Below are positions 27,501 to 62,093 of a stretch of DNA of 64,000 bases, in pieces. The stretch's first letter is position 1, and every line of letters starts with the position of its first letter. The notes beneath the pieces were generated by a model. The model was not told where the DNA came from. It was given only the letters and a program-made list of their open reading frames with translations, and did no database searches. The stretch covers positions 62,001 to 126,000 of the forward strand of contig JBCCHV010000008.1 in the NCBI GenBank assembly GCA_039028635.1, given 5' to 3'. This DNA is from Acidobacteriota bacterium. GTDB taxonomy: Bacteria; Acidobacteriota; Thermoanaerobaculia; Multivoradales; JBCCEF01. Both the position numbers and the translations under genes were made by a program.

Positions 27501-28298
27501 GCCATCGGCGAGCGCATCTTCGAGGCGCTTGAGCACCACCAGGGCGACCCCACTGCCCACCGAAGTGCCGGTGGCGTCGGCATCGAAGGCCCGGCAACGG
27601 CCGTCCCGCGACAACACGCCGCCGGTCTGGTAGAGGTAGCCGCGGGTCTGAGGCAGGCGCAGAGAAGCCCCGCCCGCGAGGGCGAGGTCGCAGTGTCCGG
27701 CGAGCAGGTGATCGCAGGCGATGCAGACGGCGACCAAGGAGGTCGAGCAGGCCGTCTGCACGCTCAGAGCCGGGCCTCGCAGGTCGAGCTTGAAGGCGAT
27801 GCGGGTGGCCGCGAAGTCTTTCTCACAGGCGTGCATCAGGGCCTGGAAGTCGAGCCCCGGCAGCACGGCGTTGTGCAGCATGGCGGCGTAGTGGCTGGTG
27901 CCGGTGCCGGCGAAGACCCCGGTACGCGCGCCATCGCGGTCGCAGGATCCCCCATAGCCGGCATCGTCGAGGGCCTGGTAGGCACCTTCGAGCAGCAGCC
28001 GCTGCTGGGGATCGAGGATCGCCGCTTCGGAAGGGGTGTAGCCGAAGAGGTCGGCATCGAACTCGTCGACCGTGGCGAGCTGCCCCGCCGCGCGCACGTA
28101 GTCCGGGTTGTCGAGCAGGGCGCGGTCGACTCCCGCCGCCAGCAGATCTTCCTCGGCCAGGTCGCTGATCGCATCGACCCCATGCAGCAGGTTCTGCCAC
28201 AGGGCCGCGACGGAGTCGGCCGCCGGGAACCGGCCCGCCATGCCAATGATCGCCACCGCCTCGTGGGTCGCGCTGTCGATGGTCGAGTTCAGGCTCAT
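24552..28298 (-). CDS. Type I polyketide synthase module: KS-AT-ACP-TE
   Basis: The 1248-residue enzyme starts at ATG 28298, sharing ATGA with the NRPS stop. KS, residues 12-435: TACSTS with Cys184, EAHGTGTPLGD and KSNLGHLDAAAG give the Cys-His-His set. AT, about 460-800: GYSLGEYAA with Ser621, where Tyr replaces the usual His before Ser; the specificity loop reads VPAHSH, which is not a standard malonyl or methylmalonyl signature. ACP: GGDSL with Ser938. TE, from about 1000: YCIHPAGGN, GLSFGG with Ser1068 and PGAHETMIDPPH. There is no KR, DH, ER or MT. One extension leaves a beta-keto group, then the thioesterase releases the chain. A separate SDR gene follows. Confidence 0.95.
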   Translation of the reverse strand: MSLNSTIDSATHEAVAIIGMAGRFPAADSVAALWQNLLHGVDAISDLAEEDLLAAGVDRALLDNPDYVRAAGQLATVDEFDADLFGYTPSEAAILDPQQRLLLEGAYQALDDAGYGGSCDRDGARTGVFAGTGTSHYAAMLHNAVLPGLDFQALMHACEKDFAATRIAFKLDLRGPALSVQTACSTSLVAVCIACDHLLAGHCDLALAGGASLRLPQTRGYLYQTGGVLSRDGRCRAFDADATGTSVGSGVALVVLKRLEDALADGDSIRAVIRGYGLNNDGKDKAGFSAPSAEGQAEAIETALEMAGLDASDVGFVEAHGTGTPLGDAIELTALNEVFGSAADGSCLLGSLKSNLGHLDAAAGVAGLIKAAQVVRHGLVPPTLHFQSPHRFLGLDRTAFRVNREVERWPADRPRRAGVSSFGIGGTNAHVVVEQFVPPQEEAVPDEAPPRPSVLLFSGRSEAAAEGYARQVAEALPEVPSLADAAFTLQVGRRHFSRRLAYVCSDVSELSLASAAASGVVSERRSASFLFSGFGVDCRPSAIAFYGGEPVFRAMADDCARAAAGIGLGGAVEQLWARQTADPDPLLEPHPGMVAMFTYQVALAATLEAAGVEPAAMLGYSLGEYAAAYRAGVFSLEDALRLVHKRAELFAKLPPGAMLAVAASAEETEPLMDEALSLAAINAPQACVVSGTTEAVGRADERLRRRGIQTRFLATAVPAHSHLLAPVLEEFGEAVSKATLLAPRLPLVTSLTGTWMTPEQATEPSFWVDQLRHTVQFAAAIRTLLQQPAPVLLEVGPTRALASLARLSCGEDDDAVVLSCGRHRHGTETPETLLQTALAGLWACGVEVDWAQRQKGNRRRVPLPASPLERQRYWVEVSPRASEPAVLDVGSRDAEAVEADEELALPRHGPAVRRAFRTILGFEQIGLDESFFDLGGDSLMALRLTAVLSQDLGRSVSPEVLVQHPTVRKLAASLESAAPVGNGRYLVPLRPGEAARTLYCIHPAGGNVLCYRDLAQHLGGAGGLVGVKARGLDNGQKPLASVSEMADLYLQAMAESPDQGALYLIGLSFGGAVAFEMARRLEGDGREVAFVALLDTPSPGQLSEDLESRSEILAYLAGPASGLRASQLYGLEPAEQLARALRFGRLRELFPDPAHHDDARRYVEVFERNLVALRTYDPGRYDGRVHFYKAAVRSGHQPEAPEALWQELAGGGLELRVVPGAHETMIDPPHVAGFAQELEKEMRNHGWQ

Positions 28299-31200
28299 CG
28301 GGCGGATTCCCTCCTCGATCGGCGGACCCGGCGGCGACTGGGCCGGGGCGTTCGGAATCGCCTGCCGCGCCGCGCCGACCGCGCCGCATCCCCGGCGCTG
28401 CCCAAGTGGGCGGCGATCTGGTTCACGGTGGTGTACTTCATGAGATCCACCAGCGAGATCTCATGATCGAGCTCGCTCTGGATCAGCGACTGCACCCGAG
28501 CCAAGTCCAGGGAGGTCCCGCCGAGCTCGAAGAAGGGCTCGTCGAGCTCGACCCGAGAGACCTGGAGAACTTTCTGCCAGATCCCGGCGACGGCACGCTC
28601 GGTGGCACTGTGCTCGCTCCTCGAGGTCGGGCGCTGGCGTTGCGGCGCCGGCAGGCCATCGCGGTCGACCTTGCCGTTGGCGGTCATCGGCAGCTCGGTG
28701 AGCAAGACCACCGCCGCCGGCACCATGTAGGCCGGCAACTTCTGCTCGGCGAGCTCTCGCAGCCAGCTGCCGTCCCCCTGCTCCGTGCCCTCGGGCACCA
28801 CCCAGGCGACCAGCTGCTCGCTCCGGCCGAGGCGCACCAGACCACAAACGCAGTCCCGCACCCGGGGACTGGCATTGAGCACCGCCTCGACCTCACCGAG
28901 CTCGATGCGGATACCCCGAACGTTGATCTGGGCATCGCCGCGGCCGACGAAGTCGAGCCTGCCGTCGCTCCGTCGCCGAACCAGATCACCGCTGCGATAG
29001 CAGCGTTCTCCAACCGCCTCGGGGGTGACGAAGGAGCCGTCCGTGAGATCCCGTTGGCCGCGGTAGCCGCGACCGACACCGACGCCACCGATCCACAGCT
29101 CGCCGATCACCCCGAAGGGCAGCTCGCGGCCATCGCGTCCCAACACGTGGACCTGCAGATTGTCGATCGGGGCGCCAATTGGCGGCGGCCCGTCAGCGCC
29201 CGCCGGCGGCACCTCGGCGGCCGTCGCGACCACCGTGCACTCGGCCGGCCCGTAGTGATTGATCAGGCGGAACGGCAGGCCGCCCGGCGGCCTCGATCCG
29301 AGCCGATCGCCACCGGTCAGGAGGGCTCGCAGCGCCGTCTCTTCGGGCCAGGCCTGGCGTACGGCCGCCTCCGCCAGGGGCGTGGGCATGAACGACACCG
29401 TCACCCGCCGATCGGCCAGCCAGCGAACCAGCCGCGGCACGTCGAGCCGCAAGTCGTCGTCGACGATGTCGAGGGTCGCCCCCGACGCCAGGGTCGGCCA
29501 AACCTCCCAGACCGAGGCGTCGAACCCCGGATTGGCCAGCAAGGTGGTGCGATCCGTCGCCTCCAGGCGATAGGCCCGCCGATGCCAGCTCACCAGATTG
29601 CGCAGGCCGGCTCGCGTCACCTCGGCGAGCTTCGGGCGGCCGCTGGTGCCGGAGGTGGCGACGACATAGGCCAGACCGTCCGCTGCCGTCGGCGGCAGCT
29701 TTGGTGAGGCCCCCGACGTCGTCGCATCGGGGCTGAGGCGAGCAACTCCTAGCTCACCGGAGAGCTTCACGGCCAGGTCGTCACGGCAGATCAATGCCTT
29801 CGCCCCGGCTCCTTCGAGGGCCATCGCCAAGCGCGCCGGCGGTTGATCCGGGTCGAGCGCCATCCAGGCGGCCCCGGCCTTCGCCACCGCCAGCAGGGAC
29901 CAGACATAGGCCAGCGAGCGCGGCAGGACGACTCCGACCACCGCTCCCGGAGCGACTGCGCGGGAGCCGAGGGCCTGCGCCAGCCGATGGGCGCGCTCTT
30001 CGAGCTCACCGTAGGTCAGCGAGTCGCGACCGTGGACCACCGCCAGGGCGTCGGGCTGATCCGCCGCCAGGCGCGCAATGCGCTCGCTCAAGGGCTCGCC
30101 GTCGACCTGCTGCGCGGTGTCGTTGAGGGTCACGATCCGCTGCCCTTCCTCCTCGGTCAGCAACTCGATCTCCGAGAGACGATGCACCTCCTGGGTGCCG
30201 AAACAGCCCAGCGCCAGGGCGAAGTGTCGGCTCATGCGCTCGACGGTGTCGGCGTCGTAGAGATCGGCGTCGTACTCCAGTCGACCGTGCAAGCCGTCCG
30301 CCGTCTCTTCGAACAGGAACGCCAGCTCGAACTTGGCGTGCCGCGCGGCGACCGGCAGCACCTCGGCATCGAAGGCGGCGAGGGGCTGGCGCTCGCCCTG
30401 CAGAGAGACGACGACGTCCAAGGGCACTCCCGCGTCGCTCCCGCTTCCTTCCCGCAGCTCCTGCACGACCTCGTCGAAGGGCAGCTCCTGATGATCGAGC
30501 GCCTCGACGATCCCGGCTCGAGCCGCCTCGAGCACCCTGCCGAGGGTCGGATCGCCGGAGAGATCGCTGCGGATCAAGAGCGTGTTGGCGAGCATCCCGA
30601 CGGTCTGGTCGAGGCCTGCTGCCCCGCGCCCAGAGGTCACCACCCCGACCGCCACGTCGTGACTGTCGGCCCAGCGCGAGAGCACTAGCTGAGCGGCCGC
30701 GACCAGCCCCATGAAGAGCGTTGCCCGATGGCGCCCGAAGACCTCACGAGCGGCCTCCTCGACGGCGCCGTCGATGCGGATCGGCACCGTCGACGCACGA
30801 CCGCGGGTCGTGCCCACGGCACGGCTGCGCCGCGGCAGCCGCAACCGTTCGAGCCCTTCCAACCGCCGGCGCCAGTAGCGTTTCTCGTGCTCCAGATCAC
30901 CGTTCTCGAGCCGCTGACGCTGCCAGGCGACGTAGCCTTCGTGGTTCACCGAAATCGCCGGAAGCTCGACTCGCTCGCCGCTCGTCAGGGCGCGATAGAG
31001 GATCGACAGCTCACGATTCAGAATCTCGAGGGACTCGCCGTCGGCGGCGATGTGGTGGATTGTCCACTGCAGGACGTGAACCTCGTCCCCGAGCCGCAGC
31101 AGAACCGCTCGAAAGGGCAGGTCCCGCGACAGGTCGAAGGGCGCCAGTCGGTCGCTGTCGAGCACGTCGCCCTGATCCGGCCCGAGAAGTCGCAGAACCT

Positions 31201-34200
31201 TTTCGGGGGCCGGCAGCAGGTGAGCTCTCAGGTCGTCATCGACGAAGGAGAAGCAGCTCCTCAGGCTGGAATGGCGCGCCACCAAGCGATCGCAGGCGGA
31301 CGACAGGGCGCGGAGGTCGAGCCGCCCACGAAGCCGCTGGCGCTGGACGATGTGGTAGGCGGAAGTGTCGGCCGCTGTCTGGCACTCGAACCACAATCTG
31401 CGCTGAGCCGAGGACGCCAACCCAGCGCCTTGCTCTTGGTACCCAGGCCCGCCCAGGGAAAGCGGCCGCGGCGCGCCGGCGGCATCCACCCGGTGCGCGA
31501 AGGCGCCGAGGGTCGAGGCGCTGAACAGACTAGACGGCGGCAGCTCGACCCCGAGCTCTGCCCGGACGCGGGTCACCACCGCCCCGACGAGCAGCGAGTG
31601 GCCGCCGAGGGCGAAAAAGTCATCGCCCCTGGTCACTTGCTCCGGTGGCAGCTCGAGCACCGCCGCCCAGATATCGCGGACGATCCGCTGCGTCTCCGTG
31701 AGCGGCTGTCGCGGCGCCGGCTCTAGCTCTGGCGCGGCGGAGGCGAGCGCTTCAAGCTCGCGATAGGCGATCTTGCCGTGATTGGCGACCGGCAGCGCCT
31801 CGAGCACCTCCACCGCCGCCGGCACCATGGCAGCCGGCAGCGCCTCCTGAGCCCGCGAGCGCACCGCGTCGGCGGCCAGGCGAGAGGAGTCCCCCGCGAC
31901 GAACGCCACCAGGCGACGATGCACCCCGGAACCGACCAGGACCACGGCGGCGCCCGACACCCCCGGCTGAGCCGCCAGGTTGGCCTCGATGTCCGCCAGC
32001 TCGATGCGATGCCCGCGCAGCTTCACTTGCCGGTCGAGGCGCCCGAGAATTTCGAGATTGCCATCGGGCAGGAAGCGCGCCCGGTCGCCGGTGCGGTAGA
32101 GGCGCCCCCCGGGCTGCTGTCCCCAGGGATCGGGCACGAAGCGCGCCGCCGTCGCCGCCGGCTGATTCGAATAGCCGTCGGCCAGCCGCGGACCGGCGAT
32201 CGCCAGCTCGCCGACGAAGCCCGGCGGGCACCGGCGTCCGCGGCGATCGAGTACCTCGACGCGGCTGCCGAGCAAGGGACGCCCCACCGGAACCCCGTGG
32301 TTGGCGAGCCGAGGAGCCTGCCCAGCGTCGAGCTTCCAGGCGGTCGCCGTGACCGTCGCTTCGGTCGGTCCATAGGCATTGATCAGCGCGACCCGCTTCC
32401 CCACCGACTCCGACCAACGCTGCAGATCGTCGGCGCTGCAGATCTCCGTGCCGATGATCACGCGGCGCAACGCGGGAAGCGTGGCGAGGTCGGGAGCGCT
32501 GTCCAACCACAGGCTCCAGACCGCCGTCGACAGGCTGGCGACGGTGACCCGCTGCGCGGCCATGAAGCGGCTCATCGTCGTGCCCAACAGCGCCTGATCC
32601 GGCGGCAACACCACCACCGTGGCGCCGGCGGCCAAGCCGCCCAGGACCTCTTCGAGGGCGAGGTCCGAGGACACCTGGGCCGAAGAGAGGACCCGATCCC
32701 CCGCCTCCACCCCGTAGGCGAGCAGCGCCGCGTCGAGATGGGTCGCCAGGGCGGCGTGGGAAACGACCACCCCCTTGGGACGTCCGGAGGTGCCGGAGGT
32801 GAAGACGACGTAGGCGGGGTCGTGAGGCGCGACGTCAGCCCTCGGCACCGGCGCCCCCTCCCTGGCGATCTGGCGCGACGGACTGACCACGGCGCCCCCC
32901 GCGAGAGCCGGCGATGCAGCATCGGAAAGCTCCGCCAGGCAGCAACGGATCGCCGCATCTTCGAGGATCTGAGCGATTCGGTCGTCGGGCGCCCGCGGGT
33001 CCAGCGGAACGGCGACCGCTCCGAGATGGAAGACGGCCAGCAGGCCGGTCACCTGCAGGGTTCCCGCAGGCAGCAGCAGGCCGATCCGATCTCCCGGCTG
33101 AACGCCCCGGCGAGCCAGGGCCCCGGCCACCGCCTGCCAATGGCGCTCCAGGGTCGCGTAGTCCACCTCGCCGGCATCATCGACGACGGCGGTGGCGAGA
33201 CCGCGGTGCGCCACGATGCGTTCGAGGACCAAAGTCGAGGACTCCGCTCCGGTCTGCGCCGGTCGTGACCAACTCTCCAGCCGCCGGCGCTCCGAGGACG
33301 TCAGGATCTCGAGCCGTGAAGCCGACCGCTGCGGCTGGCGAAGGACCTGCTGGAGGAGCTCGACGAGGTGTCCGGGCACCGCCTTCGCCGCGCTCTCGGG
33401 AACCAGGCGGCCGTCGTACTCGAGATCGAGAACCAGCTCGTCGCCGCGCCGGAGGAAGTTGAAGCTCATCGCCAGGTTGGTGTCCCGGCGGGTGCGCTGG
33501 ATGGGTGCGACCTCGACCCCGGGGAGGAACAGGCGGATGCCCTCCTCGCGCAGGTCGACAAGGACATCGAAGAGCGGATTGCGACCAGCCCGCCGCTCCG
33601 GCCGCAGCAACCGCACGACCTCGTCGAAGGGCACTGCCCCGTGCTCCAGGGCACCGAGGAGTGCCGCCCGAGTGCGTCGCAAGCAGGTCGAGAAATCGGG
33701 GTCGTCGGAGAGATCGAGGCGCAGCACGACGGTGTTGACCCAAAGCCCGACCAGGCGCTGACTGTCGCCATCGGTGCGATTGGTGAAGGCGCCGCCGACG
33801 GCGACGTCCTCAGCCTGGGTGACGATCGACAGCAGCACCTGCACCGCGGTGACGAGGGCCGTGTAGAGGCTGGCTTCATCTCGGCGACAGAGCTCGACCA
33901 GGTCGTCGGTCAAGGGCTGCGGAAAGCGGCAGTGCACCGCCATCCGACGATCGAGCCCTGCGCCGACCTCGCCGGCAACCGGCAGCGGCAAGGGCAAGGG
34001 CTCGAGGTCGGCGAGGCAATTCCGCCAGTGGTCGCTCCAGCCTCGCGGCAAGGCATCGATCATGCCCTCGTGGAGCGCCACGAGCCGTTGGTAGGCCTCT
34101 ACCGAGGGGGCCGTCGTCGGCGCGGCGGGCGGCTCGGTGTAGAGCTCGGAAAGCTCGGCGATCAAGAGGTCGAGGGACCAAGCGTCGACGACCAGGTGAT

Positions 34201-36442
34201 GGAAGGACAGCACCAGGGCCCGCTCGCCCGGCGAATCGAGGAGCAAGGCGCGACACAGCGGGCCAGCGAGGAGATCGAAGGGGCGATTCGCCCACTGCTC
34301 GACACAATCGCTCAGGTCTGAATCGGTCTGCTGCCGCTCGAGACGCCATGAAGGTGTCTCCGCCAGCGTGATCCATGGCGTTTCGGCTTCGACGACGATC
34401 CGAGCCCGCAGCGCCGGGTGACGTGCCGAAAGCTCCTGCAGCGCGCCTTCGAGGCGACCCGAGTCGACCTCACCGGCGAGGCGCCAAGCCCGCCAGACGT
34501 TGTACTGGGAGCTCGTCGGATCGGCCTGCCAGAGGAAGTACATTCGCCGCTGCGCCGGAGTCAGAGCGAAGGCCGCGGCAGGCTTGCCGGATTCATCCTC
34601 GACCGTGGCCCCATCCACCGTTTCACCGGCAGGCGAGGCATCGCCGACCGCGACCTCAGCAGCCTGCGCGAGCACCTCGTCCAAGGGGCGCGCTCCGAGA
34701 AGAGCCAGCAGGTCGACCGCGAGGCCGAGGGACGCGCTCAGCGCCGAGACCAGGCGGATGGCCTGCAGCGAGGAGCCTCCCAGGGCGGTGAAGCTGTGGC
34801 CGTTCTTTCCTTCCACGAAGTGCGGTCCGAGCACTCTCGACAGGACCCGGTCGAGAGGGTCGAGCTCGCCCTCCGGGTCGCCAGTGGCCTCGACCATCGC
34901 CGGCCGATAGCGCATCAGGGTTCGGCGATCGACCTTGCCGTTGGGCAGCCGCGGCAAGGCATCGAGAGCCTCGATCCGCTCCGGAATCATCGCCGGCGTA
35001 AGCAACCTCCCAAGGTGCCGCCGCAGCGTCGCGGCCTCGATCCCCCGACCGCCGTCGCGGGGTACCGCAAAGGCCACCAGCCGGGCCTCGCCGGCATCGT
35101 CATCCTGCGCCACCACCGCCGCCTCGGCGACGGCCGGGTCGGAGGCCAGCGCGGCCTCGATCTCTCCGGGCTCGATCCGAACCCCTGCCACCTTGATCTG
35201 AAAATCGGCCCGCCCGAGGAGCTCGACCTCGCCGTCGGCGTTCCAGCGGGCGAGGTCACCGGTGCGGTACATCCGTTCGGCGACACCGCCGCCGAGGTCG
35301 GCAACGATGAAGCTGGCCGCCGTCTTCTCCGCGTCGTTCAGATAGCCCCGCGCCAACCCTTTGCCGCCCAAGAAGAGCTCACCGCTGGCACCGGCAGTCA
35401 CCGGCTGTAGGTCGTCGTCGAGAATCCGACAGAAGGTGCCGTCGATGGGTCGCCCGGTGGGCACCACCTCGGGAACATCCTCACCGGGCAGGAAGCGGTG
35501 ACAGATGACCGCCGTCATCTCGCTCGAGCCATAGCGATGAACCAGCGTCACCTCGGGCAGCAGGGTGCGCAGCTCGCGAATCAAACCGGGCGGTGAAGGC
35601 TCGCCACCGATCTCGATCACGCGCAGGGACTCGAGGGCGCGCAGGCGGTCCGCGTGGTACTCGAGGATCAGGCGGAGCAGCGTCGGGATGACCCCGAGAT
35701 GGGTCACGCCGCGTTGCGCGGCGCCCTCCAGAAGGCGCGCCGGGTCGCGGCCGTCGGCGCCTGGCAGCCAGGCCGTGATCCCCGCCGTGAGCGGCCCGAA
35801 GAGCTCCCAGTTCGAGATCACGAAGCTCGGCGAAGCCCGCACGCAGGCCACGTCGTCGGGCAGAAATCCCACCGTCCTCTGGAACCACTCGAGGCGGTTG
35901 AGAACCCCTTCATGGGTGCCACAGACACCTTTCGGAAGCCCCGAAGAGCCCGATGTGTAAACCACGAAGGCGCGATCATGGGCGCTGCGCTCCGGATAGA
36001 AACGGCGCAGGCTCGGAGCCCGCTGGAAGTCCGACTCGACCTCGAAACACCGACCCGCGAAGGGCCGGAGCTCGCCGCCGTAAGACCGCCGGGTGATCAG
36101 CACCGACGCCGCCGAGTCGTCCAGCATGTGCTGCTGGCGCTGGGCTGGATAGTCTGGATCGACGCACAGGAAAGTCATCCCGGCCTTGAGGACTCCCAGA
36201 ACCACTGCCACGTGGTCGATCGACGGCTCGAGGACGACGGCGACGATCGGCCTGCCGACGAGCTCCAGATCGAGGAGCGAGTCGGCGACGACTCGTGCCC
36301 GCAGGTCGAGCTCGCCGTAGCTACAGACCTGGTCGCCACAGCAGAGGGCGATCCGGTCGGGCTCCAGCGCAGCCCAATCGGCGATCACCCCGTGAATGGT
36401 CTCGTGGTCACTCTCGGCAAAGGGCTGTTCGTTCAGAATCAT
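28295..36442 (-). CDS. Nonribosomal peptide synthetase: A-PCP-C-A-PCP-C-A-PCP
   Basis: The 2715-residue enzyme has three modules. A1 (1-510) starts directly with adenylation and has TSGSSGLPKG. PCP1 has Ser558. C1 (600-1040) has HHLVVDA. A2 (1055-1550) has TSGTSGRPKG. PCP2 has Ser1616. C2 (1640-2080) has HHIAADG. A3 (2090-2600) and PCP3 (Ser2644) follow. No E, MT, Cy or TE domain is seen. Binding-pocket readings by eye: A1 V-I-W-G-E-G-R-A-V-K, lacking the Asp that holds an alpha-amino group, so an acid starter is likely. A2 D-L-E-S-I-G-A-V-T-K, with Glu suggesting a basic side chain. A3 D-A-W-F-L-G-H-V-V-K, one change from a known Leu code. The last 27 residues are Arg-rich. The upstream ribosome-binding site is weak. 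Confidence 0.95.
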   Translation of the reverse strand: MILNEQPFAESDHETIHGVIADWAALEPDRIALCCGDQVCSYGELDLRARVVADSLLDLELVGRPIVAVVLEPSIDHVAVVLGVLKAGMTFLCVDPDYPAQRQQHMLDDSAASVLITRRSYGGELRPFAGRCFEVESDFQRAPSLRRFYPERSAHDRAFVVYTSGSSGLPKGVCGTHEGVLNRLEWFQRTVGFLPDDVACVRASPSFVISNWELFGPLTAGITAWLPGADGRDPARLLEGAAQRGVTHLGVIPTLLRLILEYHADRLRALESLRVIEIGGEPSPPGLIRELRTLLPEVTLVHRYGSSEMTAVICHRFLPGEDVPEVVPTGRPIDGTFCRILDDDLQPVTAGASGELFLGGKGLARGYLNDAEKTAASFIVADLGGGVAERMYRTGDLARWNADGEVELLGRADFQIKVAGVRIEPGEIEAALASDPAVAEAAVVAQDDDAGEARLVAFAVPRDGGRGIEAATLRRHLGRLLTPAMIPERIEALDALPRLPNGKVDRRTLMRYRPAMVEATGDPEGELDPLDRVLSRVLGPHFVEGKNGHSFTALGGSSLQAIRLVSALSASLGLAVDLLALLGARPLDEVLAQAAEVAVGDASPAGETVDGATVEDESGKPAAAFALTPAQRRMYFLWQADPTSSQYNVWRAWRLAGEVDSGRLEGALQELSARHPALRARIVVEAETPWITLAETPSWRLERQQTDSDLSDCVEQWANRPFDLLAGPLCRALLLDSPGERALVLSFHHLVVDAWSLDLLIAELSELYTEPPAAPTTAPSVEAYQRLVALHEGMIDALPRGWSDHWRNCLADLEPLPLPLPVAGEVGAGLDRRMAVHCRFPQPLTDDLVELCRRDEASLYTALVTAVQVLLSIVTQAEDVAVGGAFTNRTDGDSQRLVGLWVNTVVLRLDLSDDPDFSTCLRRTRAALLGALEHGAVPFDEVVRLLRPERRAGRNPLFDVLVDLREEGIRLFLPGVEVAPIQRTRRDTNLAMSFNFLRRGDELVLDLEYDGRLVPESAAKAVPGHLVELLQQVLRQPQRSASRLEILTSSERRRLESWSRPAQTGAESSTLVLERIVAHRGLATAVVDDAGEVDYATLERHWQAVAGALARRGVQPGDRIGLLLPAGTLQVTGLLAVFHLGAVAVPLDPRAPDDRIAQILEDAAIRCCLAELSDAASPALAGGAVVSPSRQIAREGAPVPRADVAPHDPAYVVFTSGTSGRPKGVVVSHAALATHLDAALLAYGVEAGDRVLSSAQVSSDLALEEVLGGLAAGATVVVLPPDQALLGTTMSRFMAAQRVTVASLSTAVWSLWLDSAPDLATLPALRRVIIGTEICSADDLQRWSESVGKRVALINAYGPTEATVTATAWKLDAGQAPRLANHGVPVGRPLLGSRVEVLDRRGRRCPPGFVGELAIAGPRLADGYSNQPAATAARFVPDPWGQQPGGRLYRTGDRARFLPDGNLEILGRLDRQVKLRGHRIELADIEANLAAQPGVSGAAVVLVGSGVHRRLVAFVAGDSSRLAADAVRSRAQEALPAAMVPAAVEVLEALPVANHGKIAYRELEALASAAPELEPAPRQPLTETQRIVRDIWAAVLELPPEQVTRGDDFFALGGHSLLVGAVVTRVRAELGVELPPSSLFSASTLGAFAHRVDAAGAPRPLSLGGPGYQEQGAGLASSAQRRLWFECQTAADTSAYHIVQRQRLRGRLDLRALSSACDRLVARHSSLRSCFSFVDDDLRAHLLPAPEKVLRLLGPDQGDVLDSDRLAPFDLSRDLPFRAVLLRLGDEVHVLQWTIHHIAADGESLEILNRELSILYRALTSGERVELPAISVNHEGYVAWQRQRLENGDLEHEKRYWRRRLEGLERLRLPRRSRAVGTTRGRASTVPIRIDGAVEEAAREVFGRHRATLFMGLVAAAQLVLSRWADSHDVAVGVVTSGRGAAGLDQTVGMLANTLLIRSDLSGDPTLGRVLEAARAGIVEALDHQELPFDEVVQELREGSGSDAGVPLDVVVSLQGERQPLAAFDAEVLPVAARHAKFELAFLFEETADGLHGRLEYDADLYDADTVERMSRHFALALGCFGTQEVHRLSEIELLTEEEGQRIVTLNDTAQQVDGEPLSERIARLAADQPDALAVVHGRDSLTYGELEERAHRLAQALGSRAVAPGAVVGVVLPRSLAYVWSLLAVAKAGAAWMALDPDQPPARLAMALEGAGAKALICRDDLAVKLSGELGVARLSPDATTSGASPKLPPTAADGLAYVVATSGTSGRPKLAEVTRAGLRNLVSWHRRAYRLEATDRTTLLANPGFDASVWEVWPTLASGATLDIVDDDLRLDVPRLVRWLADRRVTVSFMPTPLAEAAVRQAWPEETALRALLTGGDRLGSRPPGGLPFRLINHYGPAECTVVATAAEVPPAGADGPPPIGAPIDNLQVHVLGRDGRELPFGVIGELWIGGVGVGRGYRGQRDLTDGSFVTPEAVGERCYRSGDLVRRRSDGRLDFVGRGDAQINVRGIRIELGEVEAVLNASPRVRDCVCGLVRLGRSEQLVAWVVPEGTEQGDGSWLRELAEQKLPAYMVPAAVVLLTELPMTANGKVDRDGLPAPQRQRPTSRSEHSATERAVAGIWQKVLQVSRVELDEPFFELGGTSLDLARVQSLIQSELDHEISLVDLMKYTTVNQIAAHLGSAGDAARSARRGRRFRTPRPSRRRVRRSRRESAR

Positions 36443-53442: not shown

Positions 53443-53614
53443 GCCTGAGACCGATCCGGCGATCGTTCACCAGCCTCAGCCGATCGACCCACAGCCTCTG
53501 AAGTCTCACCGATAGCGCGCCGCGCGATCGGCTATCCCCTAACGCCTTCGTCCGGCACCGGACGGAGTGCCACCCGAAACTCCGGACATTCGACTCACGG
53601 AGGAGGACTTCCCC

Positions 53615-55825
53615 ATGCCAAAAAACCGACTCACGAGCTCCATTCGTGCATTGATCTTGTGTCTCACCATGGCTCTTCCCATCTCGGGCGATGCCCCGGC
53701 GGATGAGGCCTTTCCGAGCGCCAAACCCGAGAGCGTCGGCGTTCCATCGCAAGCTCTCGAGTTGATCGACGCTCATCTTCGAGAGCTGGTGGCGGCCGAA
53801 GAGATCGTCGGCGGCGAGCTGGCGGTGATCAAGAACCGTCGCACCATCTACCGCCAGGCCTACGGCTGGCACGATCGCGACGCTGGCGTACCGCTCGAAG
53901 CGGGCGCCGTCTACTGCGTGCGCTCGATGACCAAGCCCCTGGTGGGTACGGCGATTCAAATGCTCATCGACGACGGTCGTCTCAGCCTGGAAACACCGGT
54001 TCGAGCGATTCTCGAGTCCTTCGATCATCCCGAAACCCGCAACATCACCCTCGAGCATCTCCTGACGCACACCGCGGGCTTTCCATTCACCACCATCGGT
54101 CGCCCCCTGGGCGACTACACCAACCTCGGCGAGATCGCCGCGGAAGCGGTGGCCCATGGGCTCGACTTCGAGCCCGGCAGCAAGTTTCAGTACAGCGATG
54201 CCGGCAGCGACACCCTGGGGGCCATCGTCGAGCAGGTGACTGGCACTTCGGCGGCGGAGTTCATCGAACAACGCATCCTCGAACCCTTGGGGATGTCCGA
54301 CTCGGTCACCTTGCTCGACTCCGAAAGCGAAGGTCGCCAGCGCGTCCCAAGTGCCTACTCCGGAGGCACCGGCGCATGGGAGCGTCACTGGAGCCCGACC
54401 GAGGACCCGCCGATCTTTCATCTCTTTCTCACCTCCCAGAGCCTCTACTCCACCACCACCGACTATGCCCGCTTTCTCGCCCTCTGGATGGATGGCGGCA
54501 TGTTGGGTGACCAGCGCCTGCTCTCCACCGCGGCCATTCGACGCGGTTTGACTCCGGTCCATCACTTTGAGCGGTACCCTTCGACCTTCGAGAACCTGAA
54601 GCTGAGCTATGGTCAGCAATGGATGGTTTACACCCCGGAGGGCGGCGCAGCCAATCCGCTGATCTTCGGCCACGGCGGCTCCGACGGCACCCACGCCTGG
54701 GCGTGGCCCGAGCAGGATTTGATGGTGCTGTTCTTCACTCAATCCCGCGGCTCCCTGGCCGGCATGTCTCTCGAGGAAGTCCTCCAGACCGCCCTGGTGG
54801 ACCGCGACTTCGAATCCCTGCCCCGCACCGCCCAGGGACCGTCCGCCGAGGAGATGCGAGAGATGGCCGGTCTCTACTGGGACGAGACCAACCCCGCGGC
54901 GTACTACGTGATCTCACGCCAGGGAAAGCGCCTGATGTTCGAGCGCCCGGGCACCACCCTCTTGGTTTTCAAAGCGACGGACGCCCCCGGCCGTTTCGTG
55001 CACGAGGCCAACAAACGTCTCGAGCTCGAGTTTCTCCGCGGCGACGACGGCACAGTCACCCACATGAAGACCATGATGGGTGATCGCGTGGAGCACGATC
55101 CACGTCACGTGCCTGAGCCGGGACTGCCATCCGTCGCCGAAGTGGTGGCGATGGTCCAGAAGGCCCACGGCATCGAACGGCTCACCGAGCTCGGCGCCAT
55201 CAGCATGACCGGCAAGATCGAGTTCCTGGACCGCAAGCTGCACGGCGACTTCAACTTGCTATTCGATGCCACCCGCGAACGGACCGAGCTCAACCTGAAC
55301 GGGAACCTCGAGACCGTGCTCAAGGAGAACGGCGAGGCTTGGACGACGACCACCGCGACCGGCAAGAGCAAGCTCCGCGGCGCCCGCCTCGAGCAGGCCC
55401 TCCACGACCACATGGCCGTGCGCTTCGGCGACTGGACCCAGTCCTACGAGGACGTCGAGGTGCTGAAGCGCATCCAGCACGAGGACGAATCGATTCTGCT
55501 GGTGCGGGTCGTACCCCAACAAGCCCCGGGAGCCACCATGTTCATCGACGAAGCCACCGGCCGAGTCGTGCGGACCGACAGCCTTGCGATCATTCCGGGC
55601 ATCGGCATGGTCGGCCTCAAGGTCGTCTACCGCGACTTTCGCAACGTCGGCGGCATGCAGCTTCCTTTCCACATGAAATCGGTGTTCTCCAACAAGCTCA
55701 TCGGACGGGTAGAAACACGGATCGACGACGTGCAGATCGGTGTCGAGCTGGCCAAGAAGTCGTTCAAGCGGGCGGGGACTCGGATTGCCAAGGACGGCAA
55801 GGGCAGGAACGCGTCGAAACGCTGA
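53615..55825 (+). CDS. Secreted serine hydrolase (class C beta-lactamase fold) with C-terminal beta domain
   Basis: ATG 53615 follows GGAGGAGG and starts a signal peptide (SIRALILCLTMALPISGDAPA); the frame opens earlier at 53567. The product has 736 residues. The catalytic domain (35-410) has SMTK with Ser104 and Lys107, FQYSDAGSD as the second motif and GHGGSDGTHAW as the KTG equivalent. Residues 430-530 form a small beta domain. Residues 530-736 (MTGKIEFLDRKLHGDFNLL ... DFRNVGGMQLPFHMKSVF) are a second beta-rich part like outer-membrane lipoprotein-sorting or LolA-like proteins. It probably acts on peptides or esters in the periplasm. Confidence 0.87.
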   Translation: MPKNRLTSSIRALILCLTMALPISGDAPADEAFPSAKPESVGVPSQALELIDAHLRELVAAEEIVGGELAVIKNRRTIYRQAYGWHDRDAGVPLEAGAVYCVRSMTKPLVGTAIQMLIDDGRLSLETPVRAILESFDHPETRNITLEHLLTHTAGFPFTTIGRPLGDYTNLGEIAAEAVAHGLDFEPGSKFQYSDAGSDTLGAIVEQVTGTSAAEFIEQRILEPLGMSDSVTLLDSESEGRQRVPSAYSGGTGAWERHWSPTEDPPIFHLFLTSQSLYSTTTDYARFLALWMDGGMLGDQRLLSTAAIRRGLTPVHHFERYPSTFENLKLSYGQQWMVYTPEGGAANPLIFGHGGSDGTHAWAWPEQDLMVLFFTQSRGSLAGMSLEEVLQTALVDRDFESLPRTAQGPSAEEMREMAGLYWDETNPAAYYVISRQGKRLMFERPGTTLLVFKATDAPGRFVHEANKRLELEFLRGDDGTVTHMKTMMGDRVEHDPRHVPEPGLPSVAEVVAMVQKAHGIERLTELGAISMTGKIEFLDRKLHGDFNLLFDATRERTELNLNGNLETVLKENGEAWTTTTATGKSKLRGARLEQALHDHMAVRFGDWTQSYEDVEVLKRIQHEDESILLVRVVPQQAPGATMFIDEATGRVVRTDSLAIIPGIGMVGLKVVYRDFRNVGGMQLPFHMKSVFSNKLIGRVETRIDDVQIGVELAKKSFKRAGTRIAKDGKGRNASKR

Positions 55826-55948: not shown

Positions 55949-58255
55949 CTAGCGCCGGGTGTCGATCGATTCGTCGCCTGCCCTCGGCTCCGACGCAGGA
56001 GGAGCTGGCGGCACGAGCTCGAGCCTGCCCGCCTCGCTGAGGAAACCCGAGCGACACGACTTCTCCGGAGGTCCCTCCAAGACGGCTCGTTGCAGCTCGG
56101 CCGGGTCGAGGCGGCAAAGATGGTAGGCGCCGGACTCGAGCTGAGGGATGGAGGGCGCCTTCGCGTCAGGCAGGTTGCCAGTGGTGAAGTGAGCCCAAGT
56201 CAAAAGCGAACGCAGCCCGACAAAGGCGCCCCCGTGCAGTAGAAAGAGATCCGTGTAGGGATCCAGGCCCGCGCTCCCGTCCGACGGCTCCACGGAGAAC
56301 TCGACCTCCAAAGTGCCGCCGCGCCGAGCGAGGGGCAGCACCAACCGCTCGTCCGCCGTCATCGGCAAGACAGCGCGCGAGGCATGAAGAGCGTGCCCGA
56401 CGGCCTGAACCGCGATCAACGCCTCCGTCTCTTCCGGCGGAAGCATCGCTTCGAACGTGCCATCCGGCGCCGTGTGCTCGGTCGATACCCAGAAGCCAAG
56501 CTGCCCCAGCCCGCGGACGGTCACCCGTGCACCACCGATGCCGACACCACCTTCGTCGACCACCAATCCCGAGACCTTCTTTCGATCCTCGACCACCAGG
56601 CTGACAAACGGTGACTCGACACCATCTTCGAGTTCCAGGGGAAGTCGACGGCTCATGCGTTCGCCGCTCTCGGCGCGCAGATAGCTCATGCCCTCAGGCA
56701 GGCCGTAGAGCTCGAAACGACCTTCCGAATCTTCCACGAAGTGTCGAATGCCGGTCTCGTCCCCTTCCGGCACGGAGACGGCGACGATAGCGCGCTCCAT
56801 CGGGTTGCCCATTGCATCGACGACCTCGCCGACGATGCGCGTATCCGGCAGCTCGAAATCGAGGGTCGCTACCTTGTGACCATCGAGCTTCGGCACCAGG
56901 ATCTTGCGGAAATGGCGCTCGACGACCGGCTCCTGCGAGCCGACCTCGACGGACCACTGGCCGGCCTTGGGCAGCAGACCACGGTAGACACCGTCTTCAT
57001 CCGTTTCGAACAGGACCGAGCCAGCCCCTCCCCGTTGCTCGAAGAGAAGCCGCGCGGCGCTCAAGGGCTCGTCCCCGAGGCGCACGGTGCCGCGCACGCG
57101 CGTCACCGGCAGCGAGATCCAGCGCTCAACCTCGACGTCGAAAACCTCCAGCGCCTCGCCATGCCACGGGTCGCCGGCACCAGTTTGAATCATGACGCCA
57201 TAGCGCCCCGGGCCGAGGGACGTCTGCATCACGCCAGTCTCCGAAGCCTGCAGGCGCTCCAGAACCTCGAGATTGCCTTCGGCCTTTTCGAGCTCAATTC
57301 GCCACAGCTCGCCCCAGGGATCCCGCGCTGGATCGAGATGCAGCCTGACTTGGCGGGGTCGCTGCAGACGCAAGGGCTCTTCGAGCTCGAGCTCCTCACC
57401 ACGGCGAAGGGTCACCGCGATCCGTCGGCCCGGCGCATAGCCCGTGTCCTCGACCCACAGCGAGTACTGCCCCGGGGGCAGGCCTTCGAACTGAACGAGA
57501 CCCCGGGGTCCGAGGGATCGTTCCAACCGCTGAATCACCGGCGTCGACTCGCCGGTCGGGTCTGCTGTCGCCGGTGCTAGATGAGCCCGTGCCCCTGAGG
57601 TCGGGCCTTCGCCCTCGGCCTCGACCCGCCCCACCAAAGAAGCCCCCGGAGCCCAGGCCAGGACACCGAGGTCGACATCGGCCTGCAGCTCCGTGCCGAA
57701 CAGAAAGTGGCTGGCGAAACCCGGTGCCCGCACAGCGAGGTCGAACCGTCCAACCGGAATCTGGCAGGAAAAGGAGCCCTCGGTGACAGCGCAGCCAACG
57801 GTGCCCGATGGCACGTGTTCCCTCTGTTCAGAGGTTGGTCGAAATTGAACCTCCACCTTGGCGGGAGACTCAGCCCTTGCATCACGGCAGCAGCGTCCCC
57901 GCAGCTCAACCGTCGGCCACAATGCGATTCGGACTCGCTGCTGTCCCTGCGCCAGCGACACAGCCGTCCGGGCACTCCACATTCCAGGAGACAGCACCTC
58001 CAACGCCCAGAAGGTCTCGTCCGCGAGGTCCAGGGTAATCTCCCCCGGCAGGACGACTTCCGCCGCCTCCGTCACCTGCCGGTCGCCGGCCTCGGCTCGA
58101 ACCTCGACCGAAATCGCCTGCACGCGATCACCCTCGGTTTGCCTATCGACGCCGGCAGGGATCAGCTCGACAACCACCTCCGCCGCCGACACCGGTACCG
58201 CAGCGATGAGTAGCAGTCCGAGGCAAGAGGCCCAACTAGGCGCTGACAATTTCAT
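55949..58255 (-). CDS. Large secreted beta-sandwich protein with carboxypeptidase-regulatory-like domains
   Basis: The 768-residue protein starts at ATG 58255 inside the stop of the Cys-rich gene before it (ATGA). The signal peptide (CLGLLLIAAVPVSAAE) is clear. The rest is a row of beta-sandwich domains: GLVQFEGLPPGQYSLWVEDTGY near 235, VRGTVRLGDEPLSAARLLFE near 390, GEVVDAMGNPMERAIVAVSV near 475, and GLVVDEGGVGIGGARVTVRG near 565. These are the carboxypeptidase regulatory type seen in surface proteins. No enzyme motif was found. It is the third gene of an operon with two paralogous Cys-rich secreted proteins. Confidence 0.8.
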   Translation of the reverse strand: MKLSAPSWASCLGLLLIAAVPVSAAEVVVELIPAGVDRQTEGDRVQAISVEVRAEAGDRQVTEAAEVVLPGEITLDLADETFWALEVLSPGMWSARTAVSLAQGQQRVRIALWPTVELRGRCCRDARAESPAKVEVQFRPTSEQREHVPSGTVGCAVTEGSFSCQIPVGRFDLAVRAPGFASHFLFGTELQADVDLGVLAWAPGASLVGRVEAEGEGPTSGARAHLAPATADPTGESTPVIQRLERSLGPRGLVQFEGLPPGQYSLWVEDTGYAPGRRIAVTLRRGEELELEEPLRLQRPRQVRLHLDPARDPWGELWRIELEKAEGNLEVLERLQASETGVMQTSLGPGRYGVMIQTGAGDPWHGEALEVFDVEVERWISLPVTRVRGTVRLGDEPLSAARLLFEQRGGAGSVLFETDEDGVYRGLLPKAGQWSVEVGSQEPVVERHFRKILVPKLDGHKVATLDFELPDTRIVGEVVDAMGNPMERAIVAVSVPEGDETGIRHFVEDSEGRFELYGLPEGMSYLRAESGERMSRRLPLELEDGVESPFVSLVVEDRKKVSGLVVDEGGVGIGGARVTVRGLGQLGFWVSTEHTAPDGTFEAMLPPEETEALIAVQAVGHALHASRAVLPMTADERLVLPLARRGGTLEVEFSVEPSDGSAGLDPYTDLFLLHGGAFVGLRSLLTWAHFTTGNLPDAKAPSIPQLESGAYHLCRLDPAELQRAVLEGPPEKSCRSGFLSEAGRLELVPPAPPASEPRAGDESIDTRR

Positions 58256-58548
58256 TGCGGCAGCCGACGCTGGGGTTCGCGTTTATGGCAGGCCTCTTTC
58301 GCTCCCTCTTGGGATCTTCCTTGGGGTAACAAAGTGCACGACCCACGATCCACGCAGTAGTTGGGCACCGCCCGAATCTTGCAGTTGCAGTAGGCGCTGG
58401 ACGTCACCACTTCGCACTTGGGATTGTCCTGAGTATCGACACCGCATTGCACACATTGCCGCGCGGAGCAGTTGATGGCTGGAAGAGCAAACGCCGGCAC
58501 CGCCGATAGAGCCAGAACGCTAAGCGATACGATCATGCGGCTCCTCAT
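58252..58548 (-). CDS. Small Cys-rich secreted protein (paralogue 2)
   Basis: ATG 58548 has GGGGAG upstream and begins a signal peptide (RMIVSLSVLALSAVPAFA); the frame opens at 58668 without need. The product has 98 residues. The mature part has eight Cys in C-x4-C-x2-C-x9-C-x8-C-x-C-x8-C-x5-C, followed by a basic tail. The same spacing, with one residue difference, occurs in the gene just upstream. All eight Cys could form four disulfides or hold metal. It starts 3 bases after the previous stop and overlaps the next gene. No known family. Confidence 0.72.
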   Translation of the reverse strand: MRSRMIVSLSVLALSAVPAFALPAINCSARQCVQCGVDTQDNPKCEVVTSSAYCNCKIRAVPNYCVDRGSCTLLPQGRSQEGAKEACHKREPQRRLPQ

Positions 58549-58550
58549 CG

Positions 58551-58907
58551 TCACCCACTCCCCTCTGCAAACGATTGCGCAGCAAGAGGCTCGATGGCAG
58601 GAAACGTGGAGATGCTGCAGGACCCTCGAGTCGTGCAGAACGGTGCGATCCATGCCTTCAGCCGACAACTGCAGTGAGCGGAATAGGTCACGGTTGCGCA
58701 GGAAGCATTCCCCTGGGCGTCCTCACCGCACTCGACGCACTGAGTGCCGACACAGGTATTGGGGTGTAAGTTGGATCCAGGCCCCTTCGGGTCGGAAGAC
58801 AACGCGCAGAGCTCGCCTTCCGTGGCATGAATCTGCAGTACAACCGTGGAAGCGATCACAACTCCAACGCCGAACAAGACTTGGCGAAGCCATCGTGATG
58901 GGCGCAC
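58551..58907 (-). CDS. Small Cys-rich secreted or anchored protein (paralogue 1)
   Basis: The longer frame reaches 59069, but GTG 58907 follows GGGAG by 5 bases and starts just before a hydrophobic segment (WLRQVLFGVGVVIASTVVLQI), giving 118 residues. After the anchor, one extra Cys (GELC) is followed by C-x4-C-x2-C-x9-C-x8-C-x-C-x9-C-x5-C, nearly the pattern of the downstream paralogue; CVECGEDAQGNASC aligns with CVQCGVDTQDNPKC. The gene is first in a three-gene operon with that paralogue and the 768-residue secreted protein. Family unknown. Confidence 0.68.
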   Translation of the reverse strand: MRPSRWLRQVLFGVGVVIASTVVLQIHATEGELCALSSDPKGPGSNLHPNTCVGTQCVECGEDAQGNASCATVTYSAHCSCRLKAWIAPFCTTRGSCSISTFPAIEPLAAQSFAEGSG

Positions 58908-59318
58908 AGGTCTCCCTTTCGCCTTATACAGTAAAGTCGAATCAACGATACCACGGCAATGCCGAGGGCAGCTATCACCCTCAGCCGGAGGGAACGGAGC
59001 GCCTGAAAACAGCCTGGGCAGCAGCCCGCTCGTCCTTTCAGGACCTTGGCGGTAGAAAGGCCCGGACACCCACGGGACGACGTAAACGGCAGCAAACTGT
59101 CCGCTCCACAGCCAAGGCTACCTAGCAGTCCTGAGGTCTTTCCACCAAACGTCCTCGGCTTCCTGAGAAAGAAGAGAGCGCAAGCGGGCCAGTGGCGTGG
59201 TCGACTCGGGTAGGATGAAGCGTACTCTATGCTGTCTCGGCGCTCACTCTCCGCAAGAAGCCTCACCAGGACGTCCTGCCGATCCGATCCTCTCATTCAC
59301 TTTGAAGAAACGCTCCTG
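58908..59318. other. Divergent intergenic region between Cys-rich operon and tyrosinase fusion
   Basis: These 411 bases hold only frames that lack ribosome-binding sites. A weak candidate promoter toward the right is GTCGAC near 59199 with TACTCT at 59222. I see no clear operator or repeat. Confidence 0.4.
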
Positions 59319-62093
59319 ATGACGCGACATAGAATCTCTCTGTTGGCCGTTCTTGCTTTGGTCCTGGTAGTTCCTGCGAACTCATATGCGCAGGACACGG
59401 CGACACCCTCTTCGCTGACGCAGCGAATTGAGCGCTACCTTCAGCCCTACCTCGACATCGAGCACCTTTCGGGCACCGTTTTGGTTGCCCACGGCGAAGA
59501 AGTCATCTACGAAAGGTCTTTCGGGCTGGCTCACCGGGAACAGCGAACAGTCAACACGCCGACAACCCGGTTCGGCGTCGGCTCGGTCAACAAGCCGATG
59601 ACTGTCGTGGCCCTCGCCCGCTTGATCGAGCTGGAAAAGGTGACCTTGGCAGATCCCCTCAGCAAGTATCTGCCGGAGTTCCCTCGCGCATCCGAGATCA
59701 CCGTGGGCAATCTGTTGAACCACAGCGCCGGCATTCCGCACCGTGTCACAGAACCGCTGGATGAGACGCGACCCCAGACTGCCACCACCATGGTCGAGCT
59801 GGCGGCCAAGAAACCTCTGGCATTCGAGCCCGGATCCGACAGCGTTTACAGCTCGGCCGGCTTCTCAGTGCTGGCGCGAGTGCTCGAGCTGGCCGCCGGC
59901 AAGCCTTACGCAGAGCTACTAGAAGAGCACGTCTTGCGACCGGCAGGCATGCGAAACACCTCGGATGCCGGGTCTCGTTCCATTCTCGAGCAGCGGGCCG
60001 CCGCCTACTACTTCGGTAGCGAGGGTTTCGTGAACGCGCCCCCTGCGGACATTTCCTACCTGGTCGGGGCAGGCTCGGTCTTTTCCACTCCGCGCGATCT
60101 TCTGGCGATGCAGCAGACCTTGCTCGACGGCGGGTTCGGCAGCACGGCACAATCGATGCTGGTGCGAGAGAGCGGCAATCTAGCCTGGAATGGGTCGGCC
60201 CACGGCTACCGCGCTTTCGCCGACTACCACGCGACGAACAAGGTGGCAGTGATCGTGGCCAGCAACCTGACTTCGGGCGCGCTCGACAGAATCCGTGATG
60301 CTCTACCGAAAATGGTTGCGGGAGAGGAGGTGCCCATGCCAGCGCCGATTCGCGCCAGGGCCATTGCCGTCGATCGCAAGACTCTGAAGAGCTATCAGGG
60401 TACCTACGAGCTACGGCCGGGCAGCAACCTCCAGCTTCGCGTCACCGAAGAGGGAGTGATGATGGATGAGTGGCTGCTGATTCCCACCGCTGAGCGGACT
60501 CTCTTCTCGCCCCAAGACTACGCCGAGATCGAAGTGGTGGTGGATGACCAGGAGCAGCCGATACGACTCGACTGGAGGATCGGCGACCAGACCTATCCGC
60601 TACCTCGTGTCGCTGCCCCTGCCAGTGCGCTCCATGTCCGCCGGAGCATCGCCAGTTACGATCCCGAGAGCCCTGAGCTTGATTCGCTGAGGCGGGGGAT
60701 CGAGGTCATGCGCTCGCGCGCAACGACCGACCCGACGAGCTGGTGCTATCAGGCCAACATGCATGGCTACTCGACCAGCAGCCTGACGAAACTGTGCCCG
60801 GAAGCAGATACCAGCCAGGCTCCGGCGTCGGTGACCTGCGCGGATGGAACCGAGATCGATACCCAGGCCGGCATGATGCCGGGATGGAACCAATGCCAGC
60901 ACGGCAGCTATTTCTTCGTCTCGTGGCATCGAATGTACGTTTACTACTTCGAGCGGATCCTGCGCGCCGCCGCTGACGACCCGAACCTCACCGTCCCCTA
61001 CTGGCCCTGGAACGAAGACGATCATCGAAAGGTGCCTCTTCCGCTGCGCGAACCAGCCAACATGGCTGAGAACAGCCTCTTCGTGGCGGAACGAAGCGCA
61101 CCTGCGAACGACGGCTTCCGACTACCGGAATCTGCCGTCAGTACCGATGCGGCTTTCGCGGTAGCGACTTTTGCAAGTAATCAAGACGCGGACGAGTCCT
61201 TCGGCGGACACATTGGACTTCACGAACAGCACGAGGCGAAGGGGTCGAGCAAGGGACTGCTGGCGGTTCCGCACGCGAATATCCATGCCTTGACGGGCGG
61301 TCCGGACGGCTGGATGGCCGACAACAACAAGACTGCGCAAGATCCGCTCTTTTGGCTGCACCATTCCAACGTCGATCGATTGTGGAGTCAGTGGGTGGCG
61401 GAGCACCAGGGAGAGATCGAAGGCAACCCGATTCACGATCCGAACTGGATGAGTCACCAGTTCTTGTTTTTCGACGAATCCGGGGAGCCGGTCTGCATGT
61501 CCGGGAAGGACATCGTCGATACAGCGGCGCAGTTAGGTTATGTCTATGACGAAGGGGAAATCGACGCGGCTCTCACTAGCGACTCGGGCACTGCTCCACG
61601 GTACGAGCCAGTCCCCCGAGCAGACCTCGTAGCGGCCAGTGAGACCACCCGCGTCGAGCTCGGGGCCGGAGCCATCTCCGTAGACCTGCCCCTCGGCATC
61701 GAAGGCCAGGAGCGACTCGGGCAGGCGGCGGAGGCGGGGCGCAACGTTGTGATTTCGATTCAGGGTCTTCAGTTCCAAGACAACCCCGGCGTGCTCTATG
61801 AGATTTACGCAGATCCGGCGTCGCTAGAAGGTCTCGACACGGCTGACGACTCGTTCGTAGGCACTCTCGACTTCTTCGTCGCTCGCGGCCAGAACGATCC
61901 TCACGACCTACCAGTTCCGCCGTTTGACCGATCTCTGACCATCGCAGGCTCTGTCGCCGAGTCGTTGGGCTCCCAGGCCAAAGTCGTCTTGGTCATGCGT
62001 AGCTGGGAAAACCCTGAAGGAACCGATGAGGGGGCCGACGAAGATCTTGGGGTGCTGGCCTGGTTCGAACGCGTGACGGTATCCGTGCACTAG
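59319..62093 (+). CDS. Secreted fusion: beta-lactamase-fold serine hydrolase plus tyrosinase
   Basis: ATG 59319 starts a signal peptide (ISLLAVLALVLVVPANSYAQ); the frame opens at 59229. The product has 924 residues. The first half (30-330) is a class C beta-lactamase-like domain with SVNK (Ser89, Lys92) and VYSSAGF; a small beta domain follows to about 440. From 470 to 720 is a tyrosinase: Cys526-Gln-His528, WHRMY with His537, YWPWN, HANIH (His652, His656) and DPLFWLHHSNVDRLW (His681, His682). These form the type 3 copper pair that hydroxylates or oxidises phenols. The last 170 residues are a beta-sandwich like the C-terminal cap of plant polyphenol oxidases. The ribosome-binding site is weak. 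Confidence 0.9.
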   Translation: MTRHRISLLAVLALVLVVPANSYAQDTATPSSLTQRIERYLQPYLDIEHLSGTVLVAHGEEVIYERSFGLAHREQRTVNTPTTRFGVGSVNKPMTVVALARLIELEKVTLADPLSKYLPEFPRASEITVGNLLNHSAGIPHRVTEPLDETRPQTATTMVELAAKKPLAFEPGSDSVYSSAGFSVLARVLELAAGKPYAELLEEHVLRPAGMRNTSDAGSRSILEQRAAAYYFGSEGFVNAPPADISYLVGAGSVFSTPRDLLAMQQTLLDGGFGSTAQSMLVRESGNLAWNGSAHGYRAFADYHATNKVAVIVASNLTSGALDRIRDALPKMVAGEEVPMPAPIRARAIAVDRKTLKSYQGTYELRPGSNLQLRVTEEGVMMDEWLLIPTAERTLFSPQDYAEIEVVVDDQEQPIRLDWRIGDQTYPLPRVAAPASALHVRRSIASYDPESPELDSLRRGIEVMRSRATTDPTSWCYQANMHGYSTSSLTKLCPEADTSQAPASVTCADGTEIDTQAGMMPGWNQCQHGSYFFVSWHRMYVYYFERILRAAADDPNLTVPYWPWNEDDHRKVPLPLREPANMAENSLFVAERSAPANDGFRLPESAVSTDAAFAVATFASNQDADESFGGHIGLHEQHEAKGSSKGLLAVPHANIHALTGGPDGWMADNNKTAQDPLFWLHHSNVDRLWSQWVAEHQGEIEGNPIHDPNWMSHQFLFFDESGEPVCMSGKDIVDTAAQLGYVYDEGEIDAALTSDSGTAPRYEPVPRADLVAASETTRVELGAGAISVDLPLGIEGQERLGQAAEAGRNVVISIQGLQFQDNPGVLYEIYADPASLEGLDTADDSFVGTLDFFVARGQNDPHDLPVPPFDRSLTIAGSVAESLGSQAKVVLVMRSWENPEGTDEGADEDLGVLAWFERVTVSVH

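Follow-up and report, generated by a model that had tools for sequence, protein, structure and literature searches.

A hydrolase and a tyrosinase in one reading frame

Does a single gene in the 64,000-nucleotide stretch of DNA analysed here (the window) encode both a serine hydrolase and a tyrosinase, and could the two enzymes act one after the other? An initial annotation had proposed both. The boundaries and frame that it gave for the gene are correct (Table 1), and the frame runs through 924 codons with zero internal stops. An in-frame ATG 90 bases upstream of 59319 would extend the product to 954 aa; the signal-peptide-like stretch starts at 59319. Three Pfam families are found in the protein, PF00144 at residues 39-278 (E 6.7e-49, 167 bits against a cut-off of 27), PF00264 at 474-693 (E 7.1e-31, 108.7 bits against a cut-off of 22.6) and PF12142 (PPO1_DWL) at 705-747 (E 6e-11, above the curated cut-off), and these assignments are far beyond chance. 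The proposal of two enzymes in one secreted frame is upheld: both catalytic domains lie in a single open reading frame, and export is predicted. The two halves have similar, coding-like GC values at the three codon positions (0.65/0.465/0.735 in one and 0.65/0.46/0.72 in the other), and codon use of the gene correlates with that of its neighbours. A frameshift or a read-through of two genes was considered and rejected, given that there is no stop, no frame change and no likely second start at the junction.

Table 1. Coordinates of the fused gene, its parts and the tandem S12 proteins; positions are in the window unless a locus is named
Feature	Position	Strand	Basis or content
Fused hydrolase-tyrosinase gene, 924 aa plus stop	59319..62093	+	Open frame, Pfam domains, GC by codon position
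Signal-peptide-like N terminus, residues 1-25, MTRHRISLLAVLALVLVVPANSYAQ	59319..59393	+	Read from sequence
S12 / beta-lactamase-fold serine hydrolase domain, residues ~31-338; Ser89, Lys92, Tyr177, Trp290-Asn-Gly	59409..60332	+	PF00144, alignment, AlphaFold2, PDB matches
Lipocalin-like barrel at the end of the hydrolase half, a helix followed by eight strands, residues ~350-431	60366..60611	+	AlphaFold2 secondary structure
Seven-residue junction AAPASAL, residues 432-438	60612..60632	+	Alignment with standalone relatives of each half
Tyrosinase core, residues ~439-748; His482/528/537, His652/656/682, Cys526, Leu648, Ala653	60633..61562	+	PF00264, 59-sequence alignment, HcTyr1 numbering
Tyrosinase C-terminal LID/cap, residues ~749-924, placeholder Phe853	61563..62090	+	AlphaFold2 and structural match 8b74
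Tandem S12 protein, secreted	L041:2-2263 (G018:C183)	-	Two S12/beta-lactamase-fold domains
Tandem S12 protein, secreted	L198:1246-3825 (G060:C571)	-	Two S12/beta-lactamase-fold domains

Several other genes of the window were noted. A second S12 hydrolase is encoded at 53567-55825 (+); it is 27% identical to the fused hydrolase and carries a long C-terminal extension without a Pfam family. Two overlapping small frames, 58252-58668 and 58551-59069 (both on the minus strand), are divergent from the fusion gene and have no Pfam match above cut-off; they could be cysteine-rich secreted proteins. Further away, about 23 kb from the fusion, the region 24552-36442 (-) encodes an NRPS (three adenylation domains, two condensation domains) and then a thioesterase-containing PKS module. 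Maturation of NRPS-PKS products is a known role of S12 peptidases such as ClbP. Given the distance and the intervening genes, a tie between the fusion and this cluster would be speculative.

The hydrolase half

The first 431 residues are predicted to act as an esterase or amidase, like family VIII enzymes or D-aminohydrolases. The SxxK motif with Ser89 that the initial annotation had reported is present as Ser89-x-x-Lys92, and Ser89, Lys92 and Tyr177 are invariant among 12 aligned S12 proteins. Trp290-Asn-Gly forms the third motif. The SxxK motif, the motif-2 tyrosine and a PF00144 score over the cut-off together place the domain in the S12 family. Class C beta-lactamase (AmpC) identity was rejected, as motif 3 is not KTG and the NCBIfam bla_class_C model scores 50.7 bits against a cut-off of 415. 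The motifs of family VIII carboxylesterases (SxxK, Tyr and a third motif W/H-x-G) fit by sequence, and the fold is equally close to many S12 members.

In the AlphaFold2 model, most of residues 31-431 have a pLDDT over 90. Its matches in the PDB include 3tg9 (Z 33.0), LACTB (32.5), D-amino acid amidase (32.4) and ClbP (32.4), and at Z 30-33 it is about equally close to many S12 structures, among them a Bacillus PBP, FmtA, EstCE1 and AmpC, and the fold thus points to no particular substrate. The initial annotation had recognized the beta-lactamase fold but not the lipocalin-like domain that comes after it, at about 350-431. This region is modelled as a helix (353-359) and eight strands (361-431), and DUF3471 matches weakly at 347-382. 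The hydrolase model could be aligned to the carboxylesterase IS11 (7spn) over residues 31-432, but with an rmsd of 7.1 Å.

The tyrosinase half and its copper site

Residues 439-924 were modelled alone, the two halves being separate models since a full-length AlphaFold2 run yielded the hydrolase part only. The closest structure to the tyrosinase model (pLDDT 88.5, pTM 0.91) is that of Hahella HcTyr1 (8B74), with Z 35.6 and rmsd 3.6 Å over 399 residues that take in the LID; the Ralstonia tyrosinase and latent plant PPOs come next. The model can be superposed along its full length on 8b74 as well as on latent plant PPOs, and Phe853 aligns to HcTyr1 Phe397, which identifies a LID-type (latent) tyrosinase. 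The cap had been described as that of a plant-type polyphenol oxidase; it is present, but the same LID also occurs in bacterial tyrosinases (8B74) and not in plant PPOs alone.

The Hahella locus L117 served as the residue ruler, because the published HcTyr1 residues fall at their published positions in it. HcTyr1 His43, His78, His87, His211, His215 and His238 align with His482, His528 and His537 (CuA) and His652, His656 and His682 (CuB), and with these six copper-binding histidines and the PF00264 match the domain belongs to the type 3 copper tyrosinases and PPOs. Five of these ligands had been listed before, together with His681; that residue is the conserved non-ligand "7th histidine", and the ligand left out was His482 (HisA1), which is invariant in 59 aligned sequences. 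Cys526 is the cysteine of the CxH motif. An insertion of about 30 residues lies between HisA1 and HisA2 (residues ~488-524, window 60780-60890) and is absent from the standalone tyrosinase of locus L066; it contains Cys493 and Cys507, and is possibly a disulfide loop.

The tyrosinase had also been called complete, which holds for its copper ligands but not for the residues beside them. The water-keeper glutamate (HcTyr1 Glu207) is replaced by Leu648, and HcTyr1 Asn212, at HisB1+1, by Ala653. At alignment position 648 the 59 sequences have E in 55 cases, D in two and Q in one, with L in the fusion only; every other row has N, G or D at position 653. A wider, less strict sample of CuB motifs contains further tyrosinases without an acid at the water-keeper position (L110, L113 and L209), which makes the loss rare but not unique. 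According to a review, replacement of this glutamate always cut activity greatly, and the E-to-A change in the plant enzyme CgAUS1 left 0.5% (PMC11608171). We therefore consider the oxidase half complete in its copper site but catalytically doubtful, and its oxidation of phenols may be weak or altered.

These replacements could mean that the fusion is fortuitous, with a working hydrolase and a tyrosinase reduced by drift to an appendage that binds copper or oxygen or is simply structural. In the 59-sequence alignment, Leu648 and Ala653 are the sole residues other than E/D/Q and N/G/D at their positions, the CgAUS1 result shows how much activity such a change can cost, and hydrolase relatives exist without a tyrosinase. 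On the other side, the six ligands, the 7th histidine, Cys526 and Phe853 are all kept and about 490 codons have coding-like GC without a stop, so the copper site looks maintained; L110, L113 and L209, moreover, likewise do without the acid. On balance we regard a degenerate oxidase as unlikely, though far from negligible.

Distribution of the pairing

Outside the source genome, the S12-tyrosinase pairing was not found in the genomes searched, which number 72 for the order, 149 for the class, 396 for a sample of the phylum (with some overlap) and 296 for a second phylum. The phylum of the source genome is probably Acidobacteriota. The sole congener has no orthologous hydrolase and no close tyrosinase. 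A comparison of the tyrosinase alignment with 84,980 species genomes gave at least 577 relatives, the best 80 of which have no S12 domain in the same or a neighbouring frame at E 1e-3; at the loci examined for the hydrolase relatives, no tyrosinase is nearby. Across all 217 loci examined, the only frames with both domains belong to copies of the fusion gene itself. No plasmid record covers 80% of the fusion protein, a scan of genome contigs with the whole protein gave no relative, and no S12-tyrosinase fusion was found in the literature searched. The pairing can thus still be called undescribed within the libraries searched. The combination has so far been found in one genome; both enzyme kinds are well known. 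A search for the same two-domain order had been suggested together with the annotation, which also named absence from all relatives as a refuting result. Among the genomes covered this arrangement is indeed confined to its source. A conserved function is less credible for that reason, yet the gene need not be an artefact.

Relatives of each half are informative in their own right. Hydrolase relatives are 47-67% identical overall, with standalone forms at 47-61% (G054, G025 and G129), and standalone tyrosinase relatives reach 39% (L066, the closest). The tandem S12 proteins of G018 and G060, from the same order, have a first domain that is 67% identical and also fused at its C terminus, but the second module is another S12 hydrolase instead of a tyrosinase. 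As relatives of the hydrolase occur both alone and fused to a second S12, its C terminus is a recurrent fusion point. The hydrolase tree (support 29) is compatible with a tyrosinase replacing the second S12 or joining independently. Related HcTyr1-like tyrosinases have other fused partners (L076, L092, L098, L099, L101 and L132), namely DUF346 repeats in Nitrospira, FG-GAP repeats in Actinoplanes and Catenuloplanes, trypsin in Rhodobacteraceae, and PG-binding and OmpA domains in Bradyrhizobium. The FG-GAP, DUF346 and PG-binding/OmpA parts sit on the N-terminal side of the tyrosinase. Both modules readily gain partners, so a one-off fusion is unsurprising.

Candidates for further fusions were rejected. 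The first ~430 codons of a 943-codon frame at L066 are the shadow of another gene, of 396 aa, and the L066 tyrosinase has its own signal-peptide-like start; actinobacterial frames of 830-860 aa proved to be fusions with FG-GAP and not with S12. The AstE/AspA gene downstream of the fusion does not adjoin the hydrolase in the relatives tested for synteny. In another genome of the order, a frame at L058:1-2697 (+) (G022:C32) combines a multicopper oxidase (PF07732, PF00394 and PF07731) with a tyrosinase, and so fuses two different copper oxidases; it runs off the start of the locus.

In the succession first proposed for the two enzymes, the hydrolase would cleave a phenolic ester or a tyrosyl group and the tethered tyrosinase would oxidise the freed phenol to a quinone. 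Both domains share one chain, and each step has a precedent: the family VIII esterase DLFae4, an S12-type enzyme whose third motif is W-x-G, cleaves methyl ferulate, p-coumarate and caffeate (PMC10048530), and HcTyr1/2 accept some lignin-type phenolics (PMC11609597). The S12 fold, however, fits D-peptidases and amidases equally. Because comparative genomics gives the coupling no support, the two genes lacking any association at the loci of relatives of either half, and because the missing glutamate speaks against efficient oxidation of freed phenols, we grade this possible sequential catalysis as improbable. Less probable still is a bifunctional extracellular enzyme in which phenols unmasked by the S12 module would react at a tethered type 3 copper centre, whose altered second sphere would give it a reaction or selectivity foreign to ordinary tyrosinases.

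The junction

The hydrolase and the tyrosinase are separated by seven residues, and the peptide across the junction reads YPLPRVAAPASALHVRRS. YPLPRV (426-431) lies near the C terminus in standalone hydrolases, those of G054 and G025 ending a few to about a dozen residues beyond it. HVRRSI (439-444) matches the mature start of the L066 tyrosinase, whose conserved part begins at the residue matching Leu438/His439, just past its signal peptide. The junction lies 11.8 kb from the contig end and its DNA occurs once in the genome, so a repeat-driven misjoin is unsupported and was rejected. An assembly chimera of two genes might be suspected in a single genome that is a draft of 117 contigs, with a pairing seen in no other genome searched, but since the join is in frame, at the natural ends of both modules and in unique DNA, and base composition and codon use match on either side of it, such an artefact appears unlikely and attracts very little of our confidence.

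A proposed lineage-specific fusion

Our leading reading, tentative and with not quite even confidence, is that two genes fused recently in this lineage, so that two enzymes of known type are exported in one protein. It is favoured by the single frame, the completeness of both domains, the conserved catalytic residues, the junction at natural ends, and the confident separate models, which match solved enzymes. The partners taken up by relatives of both modules, and the activity of a family VIII esterase on phenolic esters, also speak for it. Counting against it are its occurrence in one genome only, the lack of linkage between the genes in relatives, and Leu648 and Ala653.

We hypothesize that, in such a lineage-specific fusion, Ser89 would form an acyl-enzyme and the S12 module would act as an esterase or amidase. 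The oxidase half would bind two coppers and be latent beneath the LID, and would oxidise o-diphenols weakly or selectively because the water-keeper glutamate is missing. What the fusion may offer is joint export and closeness of the two enzymes on organic matter rich in phenols, and not strict channelling of a substrate.

If both halves work, the protein would be a natural combination of esterase or amidase and phenol oxidase in one chain, relevant to the breakdown of phenolic organic matter and a ready-made two-step biocatalyst. If the oxidase is dead, the gene is a mild curiosity of domain shuffling. With its water keeper missing, the oxidase offers a natural experiment on a residue regarded as indispensable in type 3 copper enzymes, and the altered copper second sphere is the feature most worth bench study.

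Comparison with known enzymes

The hydrolase half resembles the IS11 carboxylesterase (7SPN; PMC9972953) in its Ser-Lys-Tyr set and in combining PF00144 with a C-terminal domain that is predicted to repeat the lipocalin-lid layout of IS11, one helix and eight strands. The two are 21% identical, and IS11 is without a tyrosinase; it has His299 in motif 3 where the fusion has Trp290-Asn-Gly, and Tyr160-x-Asn162 where the fusion has YSS. The family VIII esterases EstCE1 (7ATL; 29% identity) and DLFae4 (PMC10048530) share with the fusion the beta-lactamase fold, SxxK and a W-x-G third motif (WGG or WAG); the available part of the descriptions reports neither a lipocalin lid nor a tyrosinase for them.

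For the tyrosinase half, the counterpart is HcTyr1 of Hahella sp. CCB MM4 (8B74; PMC11609597), 28% identical over the structural alignment. Both have a core with a C-terminal LID, six histidines, the CxH cysteine (at which no thioether was seen in HcTyr1) and the placeholder phenylalanine. HcTyr1 stands alone and retains Glu207 and Asn212, whereas the fused enzyme has Leu648 and Ala653 in their place.
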